Source: Hufsiella ginkgonis (lineage in GTDB: Bacteria > Bacteroidota > Bacteroidia > Sphingobacteriales > Sphingobacteriaceae). Taken from it: DNA of 64,000 nt. The DNA lies in assembly GCF_009834915.1 (NCBI RefSeq), contig NZ_WVHS01000001.1, positions 1,426,001 through 1,490,000 on the forward strand. The letters run 5' to 3'. Positions 3,568-43,852 of this stretch are shown piece by piece (the stretch's first letter is position 1; each line of letters opens with the position of its first letter). A program made the position numbers and the translations under genes. The notes under the pieces were generated by a model, which was not told the DNA's origin, made no database searches, and saw only the letters and a program-made list of their open reading frames with translations.

Positions 3568-3639
3568 GGCGCTTTAGGGTCCACGCTCTTTGCGTGAAAT
3601 TTTTGGGATCAAGCTGAATTTCCGGGGAGTAAGATTTGG

Positions 3640-3945: not shown

Positions 3946-4446
3946 TTAGTCCGGCTGTTTCACGGCTCTTTTGCGGAGTAGCGTATCGATGAAATACAAG
4001 CCCATGATCACTTCCAGCAGTGCAAATCCCTGCAAGTAAACAGGGTTCTGCGGCAGCGAAAGTTTAACGGACGACAGGGTGCCTGTCCCGGGGCTCGCAG
4101 GTGTGCCCTGCGACCAGTTTACGTTTAATAGTACATAAGCGAGTCCGCCCGCCATGGTGAGCATAAAAAAAGCGGCGATACCATAAATAATCCGTTTGTC
4201 TACCAGCGAGCGTACCGTGCCGGGTGCAGGCGCCAGGCTAACCTGCTCCATTACGTGGCGGGTAAAGCTCATGGAGGGCTCATCGGCCTCCATGCCGTTA
4301 AGCGTATCATTCAAAGCGGAAAACTCTTTGAACAGGGCCGCGTACTCCGGGTCTTCCGCAATGAGGCGCCGCATCATCTCCTGTTCTCCGGGGGGCAGCG
4401 TGCCATCGAGGTAATCCCATACCTGCTGTTCCTTTATTTGCTTCAT
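3946..4446 (-). CDS. Anti-sigma factor-like membrane protein
   Basis: A 166-residue protein directly downstream of, and overlapping by 4 bp (ATGA), the ECF sigma gene, which suggests translational coupling. The N-terminal 70 residues (WDYLDGTLPPGEQEMMRRLIAEDPEY) resemble the cytoplasmic sigma-binding helices of anti-sigma proteins. There is no HxxxCxxC zinc motif. Membrane segments are at about 87-108 and 137-156. It probably holds the sigma factor inactive at the inner membrane until a signal arrives. The role is inferred from position and architecture. Confidence 0.8.
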   Translation of the reverse strand: MKQIKEQQVWDYLDGTLPPGEQEMMRRLIAEDPEYAALFKEFSALNDTLNGMEADEPSMSFTRHVMEQVSLAPAPGTVRSLVDKRIIYGIAAFFMLTMAGGLAYVLLNVNWSQGTPASPGTGTLSSVKLSLPQNPVYLQGFALLEVIMGLYFIDTLLRKRAVKQPD

Positions 4447-5012: not shown

Positions 5013-5026
5013 GTTACAGGTTGTTT

Positions 5027-5053
5027 GACGCGGGTTGTTGATGGCAGGTTACA
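5027..5053 (-). promoter_or_regulatory. ECF-type promoter of the sigma/anti-sigma operon
   Basis: Read on the minus strand the sequence is TGTAACC (5053-5047), exactly 16 nt, then CGTC (5030-5027), followed about 14 nt later by the sigma start codon. TGTAAC/TGAAAC-N16/17-CGTC is the general form of ECF sigma promoters. The same -35 and spacing occur in front of the divergent gene at 5228. Binding by this particular sigma factor is inferred. Confidence 0.65.
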
Positions 5054-5059
5054 CGTTAT

Positions 5060-5126
5060 TAGCTGATAGGTGTTGGCTGATAACGATTAGCTGATAGCTG
5101 ACAGCTGCTGGCTGATAGCTAATAGC
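5060..5126. repeat. CTGA-type dispersed repeat, long cluster
   Basis: About 67 bp of imperfect tandem units of the form AGCTGATAGCTGACAGCTG lies between the two ECF-type promoters of the divergent sigma and DUF6249 genes. The unit is roughly 7-11 bp and degenerate. Confidence 0.75.
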
Positions 5127-5160
5127 ATAAGATGTCTTGCCCATAATGTGAACAGGAGGG

Positions 5161-5187
5161 TGTAACCTCTTTCATTTCTATGTTGTC
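5161..5187 (+). promoter_or_regulatory. ECF-type promoter of the DUF6249 gene
   Basis: TGTAACC at 5161-5167, 16 nt, then TGTC at 5184-5187. It matches the sigma operon promoter on the other strand in the -35 (GTGTAACCT), the spacing and the GTCA core. This places the DUF6249 gene in the likely regulon of the adjacent ECF sigma factor. Confidence 0.6.
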
Positions 5188-5227
5188 ATAATCCCCAAAT
5201 CATATTAACCAACTAAAAAGTAACGAC

Positions 5228-5599
5228 ATGCACGAACATGTAAACAGCGTACCCGAAGAATTAATCCCAATCCTGCTCGGGATCGGGTTATTTGCAATGA
5301 TCTTTGGATTGCGGTACCTCAGCAACAAAGAAACGATGGCCATGATCCAGAACGGCATGGACCCCAAACTAAACAAAGCGACTCCTCAACCCTATAAGAA
5401 CCTGAAATGGGGATTACTGCTGATGGGCGCCGGCATCGGCCTTTTCATCGCGTTTATGCTGGATAACGCGTTCTATACCTTTGCGGATTCATCGCGCGAC
5501 AACGATAACGTATTTTTCCTCTATGTTTCTCTCCTCAGCATCTTCGGCGGATTGGGGTTGTTCATCTCTTTCCTTATGGAGAAGAAAGCGCTTTCGTAG
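5228..5599 (+). CDS. DUF6249-like small membrane protein
   Basis: A 123-residue protein with hydrophobic segments at about 13-30, 63-81 and 97-116. A cytoplasmic loop contains LSNKETMAMIQNGMDP, typical of the DUF6249 family that often accompanies ECF sigma/anti-sigma pairs in Bacteroidota. The function is unknown. It is divergent from the sigma operon and shares its promoter type, so it is probably a target or accessory of that system. Its 3' end is tail-to-tail with the DinB gene. Confidence 0.8.
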   Translation: MHEHVNSVPEELIPILLGIGLFAMIFGLRYLSNKETMAMIQNGMDPKLNKATPQPYKNLKWGLLLMGAGIGLFIAFMLDNAFYTFADSSRDNDNVFFLYVSLLSIFGGLGLFISFLMEKKALS

Positions 5600-5640
5600 G
5601 CTATCAGCCATCAGCTATCAGCTAGCTGCTATCATCAGCT
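5600..5640. repeat. CTGA-type dispersed repeat
   Basis: The whole convergent gap between the DUF6249 and DinB genes is made of CAGCTATCAGC-like units. The repeat runs up to the last codons of the DinB gene. Confidence 0.7.
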
Positions 5641-43720: not shown

Positions 43721-43852
43721 CAGCAATCAGCCGTCAGCAATCAGCTTCTTTATAGCGCTATAACGGAGCTCAAGGCTGACAGCTGATCGCTGACAGCTCC
43801 TGTTGCGCTATAACGGAGCTCAAGGCTTACAGCTGATCGCTGACAGCTCCTG
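43721..43852. repeat. CTGA-type repeat with a 48-bp tandem duplication
   Basis: After a short CAGCAATCAGCCGTCAGC cluster, a 48-bp unit (43755-43802) is repeated at 43805-43852 with one mismatch (G to T). The unit begins GCGCTATAACGGAGCTC and contains the AGCTGATCGCTGACAGC motif. The first copy is preceded by a TATAGCGCTATA palindrome (43751-43762). The second copy ends 4 bp from the HD gene stop. Confidence 0.9.

Follow-up and report, generated by a model that had tools for sequence, protein, structure and literature searches.

Paired candidate promoters for an ECF sigma factor and a neighbouring DUF6249 gene in Hufsiella ginkgonis, and their conservation in Bacteroidota

In the gap between an ECF sigma factor gene and a divergently oriented DUF6249 gene of Hufsiella ginkgonis, two copies of the same site face in opposite directions. 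Judged by their sequence and its conservation, they are very probably promoters to which the adjacent sigma factor directs RNA polymerase, one belonging to the sigma factor's own operon and the other to the DUF6249 gene. Bacteroidota encode many ECF sigma factors; to our knowledge, a recognition site or a target has been established for few of them. The original prediction, which proposed the site as a candidate for recognition by this sigma factor, is supported by the presence of the site upstream of 75 of 78 sigma orthologues and of all 63 DUF6249 genes located near them, by loci in which the two genes are separated, and by co-occurrence over 61 genomes.

The divergent gap and its genes

Coordinates refer to the window, that is, the whole stretch of 64,000 nucleotides that was analysed, which includes the following features.

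3946..4446, minus strand: putative anti-sigma factor of 166 aa, in which a four-helix domain at the N terminus precedes two predicted membrane helices
4443..5012, minus strand: ECF sigma factor, 189 aa, with Pfam Sigma70_r2 and r4_2 and no region 3
5027..5053, minus strand: predicted ECF promoter of the sigma/anti-sigma operon, with TGTAACC at 5053-5047, N16, CGTC at 5030-5027, and A at 5026
5089..5126, plus strand: AGCTGATAGCTGACAGC-type repeat, which takes up some of the interval separating the two promoters and belongs to neither
5161..5187, plus strand: predicted ECF promoter of the DUF6249 gene, with TGTAACC at 5161-5167, N16, TGTC at 5184-5187, then ATA
5228..5599, plus strand: DUF6249 membrane protein of 123 aa that matches Pfam PF19762 with 70.6 bits (cut-off 33)

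The gap between the sigma and DUF6249 ORFs is 215 bp long. The boxes on the minus strand, GTGTAACCT (5054-5046) and CGTCA (5030-5026), point to the sigma gene, with the site ending 14 nt from its ORF, and those on the plus strand, GTGTAACCT (5160-5168) and TGTCA (5184-5188), point to the DUF6249 gene, 40 nt from its ORF. The search pattern proposed earlier, TGTAACC-N16-YGTC, matches both sites exactly; the accompanying spacing of 16 nt is right for TGTAACC to YGTC and wrong by one when counted from GTGTAACCT, from which it is 15 nt. Each site combines a -35 element with an AAC core, a -10 element with a CGT/GTC core, a spacer of ~16 nt, and a position near a start codon, as is typical of ECF-type promoters. 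The fit of the AAC and GTC cores to such promoters, together with SigW being the solved sigma factor nearest to the adjacent one, supports the view that both sites are promoters.

Two matches in this gap had been considered unlikely to arise by chance, and the probability of at least two sites in 215 bp is indeed ~1.7e-8, a value based on base composition and uncorrected for the post hoc choice of the motif. No further exact TGTAACC-N16-YGTC site is present within the window besides the pair in the gap. A scan of the 5.2 Mb genome yielded four exact matches, two of them in the gap, and one for a control with the pattern reversed, with ~5 occurrences per genome expected from base composition. 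A scan that allowed two mismatches gave 20 matches against 13 for its control and was set aside. Separately, the window contains 13 copies of the AGCTGATAGCTGACAGC-type repeat, where 0.02 would be expected; they lie at positions 3639, 3742, 5089-5126, 5600-5630, 43730-43847, 45266, and 54464, with several of them intergenic.

The sigma factor belongs to the ECF (group 4) type, with matches to PF04542 (3e-16) and PF08281 (1.8e-14) and with region 3 absent; its best solved relative is SigW of Bacillus subtilis (5wuq_A, E 4.5e-23). The ORF of the putative anti-sigma factor overlaps the end of the sigma ORF by 4 nt, and this overlapping downstream ORF and the conserved sigma-type promoter are, by sequence, the elements of an autoregulated ECF/anti-sigma module. 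In the AlphaFold2 model of the putative anti-sigma factor, four helices within residues 2-71 are followed by helices 84-108 and 135-162. RsiW is its only PDB profile match, a weak one (E 0.01), and a Foldseek search with the model returned mostly anti-sigma factors at the top, all non-significant, with every known anti-sigma factor at E >2. The zinc-binding (ZAS) motif H-x3-C-x2-C was sought in 47 homologues of the putative anti-sigma factor, and neither His nor Cys occupies any invariant or near-invariant column. In turn, the model of the DUF6249 protein consists of three long helices predicted with modest confidence, and a fold search with it matched no known fold. In the literature searched, DUF6249 is mentioned once, in an unrelated paper.

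Conservation of the sites and their co-occurrence with the sigma gene

Eighty loci with sigma orthologues 63-68% identical to the Hufsiella protein were retrieved from Mucilaginibacter, Pedobacter, Daejeonella, Hufsiella, and their relatives, and 78 of them were usable. Examination of their conservation, as had been suggested, placed the site upstream of 75 of the 78 (shuffled mean 0.01), as well as upstream of 63 of 63 DUF6249 genes near the sigma gene (shuffled mean 0), although in both sets the loci are related and do not count as independent events. Of the three sigma exceptions, L051 has a spacer of 15 nt, L065 was assigned a start codon too far upstream, and L071 has its DUF6249 and sigma genes in tandem, with the site preceding DUF6249. 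Among the orthologous sites the boxes are constant and the spacer is variable. The search pattern did not specify the A located two bases past the base that follows the GTC triplet, and this A never varies in either the sigma or the DUF6249 set. In each inspected genome of family f1 that encodes a sigma factor of at least 55% identity, the site lies directly upstream of the sigma gene, with one such locus truncated at a contig edge and its site found by a separate search.

The arrangement of the two genes is not constant. Other genes split them in several loci (L009, L014, L053, and others), each of the two then having its own site, and in one genome (G028) they lie 17 kb apart, both with the site; retention of the sites after such separation supports their reading as promoters of the two genes. 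Same-strand tandems of DUF6249 and sigma genes were noted at L071, L199, and G041:C10:525930-526786. The first two have a single site, upstream of DUF6249, which again agrees with that reading.

From the end of the GTC box to the sigma ATG there are 14 nt in Hufsiella; the 75 orthologues range from 4 to 17 nt, with a single one below 10 nt, and most distant loci have ~10-14 nt. For DUF6249 the corresponding distance is 40 nt here and 54-76 nt in the loci of the family. Since transcription from ECF promoters usually starts 6-9 nt downstream of the box, the sigma mRNA would be almost leaderless, and the DUF6249 mRNA would carry a longer leader. In Flavobacterium psychrophilum, leaderless mRNAs make up 5.5% (PMC9723704).

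Sigma orthologues of at least 55% identity were found in 23 of 61 genomes of the family, and strong DUF6249 homologues (E <=2.3e-15) in exactly the same 23 (Fisher 2.7e-17, a value inflated by shared ancestry). A strict form of the site, TGTAACC-N17-GTCAKA, is present in 20 of the 23 sigma-bearing genomes and in one of the 38 others (Fisher 5.5e-12; p = 0.18 for a control pattern), a correlation that is partly built in, because the promoters of the sigma and DUF6249 genes are among the sites counted. This tracking of the sigma gene by both DUF6249 and the strict sites is a further argument that the sites are promoters for the adjacent sigma factor.

With the sigma and DUF6249 promoters subtracted, 15 strict matches are left in sigma-bearing genomes and one elsewhere. 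The reversed control gave eight matches in sigma-bearing genomes, so that about half of the 15 may be due to chance and each additional target needs support of its own. Genes that recur behind the extra strict sites encode proteins of the DUF2807/GIN type or an outer-membrane protein; a repeat-containing secreted protein recurs in a single genus. The DUF2807/GIN-type proteins with a strict site upstream in relatives (L141, L142, L130, and L138) are secreted, and the best DUF2807 gene of the Hufsiella genome (L193) is preceded by TGCAACC-N15-CGTC. Secreted proteins of ~220-240 aa encoded at L131, L132, and L137 form a family with 'KFTPS'-like repeat units; some are tandemly duplicated, and the site lies ~43 nt upstream of each.

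Across the phylum, TGTAACC-N15-17-NGTC was found upstream of 20 of the 30 DUF6249 genes sampled, including 15 of the 25 from outside the family of Hufsiella. In 19 of 20 larger DUF6249 regions from outside the family, an ECF sigma factor 29-45% identical to the one described here adjoins DUF6249; the exact pattern is located directly upstream of the sigma gene in 14 of those 19, and in nearly all of the 19 an ORF with two predicted transmembrane helices directly follows it. Thus the whole unit (sigma factor, putative anti-sigma factor with two transmembrane helices, DUF6249, and paired sites) recurs in other families, also outside the class, and the presence of paired sites beside sigma factors so divergent favours their interpretation as promoters. 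In some distant families (f12, f22, f24, and f28) the exact site is absent upstream of DUF6249.

Similar sites in other regulons and competing explanations

The two exact genome matches outside the gap precede an outer-membrane protein gene (L001), which adjoins a PspC-domain gene, and a lipoprotein gene (L004). Their orthologues (L219-L230, L247, and L273-L278) keep TGTAACC-N15/16-CGTC(T/A) or a close variant, also in genomes without the sigma factor. Genomes G011, G012, G033, G041, and G047, all devoid of a sigma factor of at least 55% identity, carry such sites, and the motif alone therefore does not prove regulation by the sigma factor of the window. In these genomes the sites are most likely read by a second ECF sigma factor with overlapping specificity, which may also share the sigma/DUF6249 sites. 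A larger regulon in the Hufsiella genome was considered and rejected, with neither L001 nor L004 assigned to the sigma factor, since their sites are kept in its absence. The proposal of a minimal regulon stands for the two conserved core targets, with the caveat that a genome scan by motif only would mix at least two regulons; the motif supplies candidates, not a regulon.

The same observations lend some weight to the idea that the sites in the gap are ECF promoters whose main reader is another sigma factor, or several, of overlapping specificity, with the adjacent one being only one client; overlap between ECF regulons has also been suggested for F. psychrophilum (PMC9723704). The strict site and DUF6249 disappear together with the sigma gene, which speaks against it, as does a difference within the sites, which nearly always read CGTC at the outer-membrane protein and lipoprotein genes, whereas the sigma/DUF6249 sites vary at that position, so that the two sets look distinct. 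We consider this explanation improbable. Less probable by far is that the sites are operators of a DNA-binding regulator rather than promoters. Two opposed copies in a single divergent gap do resemble an operator layout, but the sites consist of two unlike boxes at a fixed spacing, are always oriented towards the gene, and match the boxes of ECF promoters; they are also independent of each other when the genes are separated, and at the 75 sigma loci, one excepted, they lie a tight 10-17 nt from the ATG. As for a coincidence of two similar 11-base patterns, the genome-wide expectation of ~5 exact occurrences would allow for stray matches, but not for sites upstream of 75 of 78 and 63 of 63 genes, where shuffled sequence gives means of 0.01 and 0; in view of this conservation, chance was rejected, its likelihood being negligible.

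Proposed circuit and comparison with known systems

We infer that the adjacent sigma factor uses the two sites, that the second gene of the operon encodes its anti-sigma factor, and that DUF6249 has a role in the same circuit. The site on the minus strand would drive the sigma/anti-sigma operon, resulting in positive autoregulation, and the one on the plus strand would drive the DUF6249 gene. The membrane-bound putative anti-sigma factor would hold the sigma factor at the inner membrane until an envelope signal frees it; the free sigma factor would then fire both promoters, yielding more sigma factor, anti-sigma factor, and DUF6249 protein, with the extra anti-sigma factor resetting the switch. 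The DUF6249 membrane protein could act as the main effector or as a feedback partner. That the signal is envelope stress is suggested by analogy, through the likeness to SigW/RsiW and the membrane nature of the parts. We can speculate further that DUF6249 is a dedicated third part of an ancient envelope-stress switch widespread in Bacteroidota, protecting the membrane and feeding back on the sigma/anti-sigma pair, with an almost leaderless sigma mRNA translated under stress, a proposal that is tentative and, in our estimate, rather unlikely in its full extent.

Among known systems, B. subtilis SigW/RsiW, which consists of an ECF sigma factor and a membrane anti-sigma factor and responds to envelope stress, includes the closest solved sigma factor and the sole PDB profile match of the putative anti-sigma factor. 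The -35 element is of the AAC type in both systems, with the SigW consensus being TGAAAC (PMC6713349). They differ in that the Hufsiella sites have TGTAACC at -35, NGTC at -10, and DUF6249 as a target, and in that the putative anti-sigma factor has two predicted transmembrane helices and no conserved zinc-binding Cys/His. Additionally, the sigma factor scores well below the NCBIfam cut-offs for SigW (NF007223 / TIGR02948, 115 against 209 and 105.4 against 243.1 bits). In F. psychrophilum SM6, also a member of Bacteroidota, ECF-type promoters have a CGT box at -10, and one of them lies upstream of the ECF/anti-sigma operon THC0290_1774-1773 (PMC9723704); the likeness is one of phylum and promoter type, and, as a difference, the promoter set of SM6 includes T9SS and band-7 genes. 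EcfO/Reo of Bacteroides fragilis also comes from this phylum; it is an ECF sigma system for which a recognition motif has been reported (mentioned in PMC7366714).

A literature search for the motif found nothing evidently from Bacteroidota among the papers listed. Autoregulated ECF/anti-sigma circuits are already well known as a type; the link to DUF6249 and the depth of conservation appear to be new with respect to the literature searched. A caution for the family is that at least one further ECF regulon in it contains very similar sites. In the case described here, a site with a defined promoter sequence, its probable cognate sigma factor, and a conserved target are linked by their conservation across numerous genera and outside the class as well; within the literature searched, this offers DUF6249 its first functional lead.
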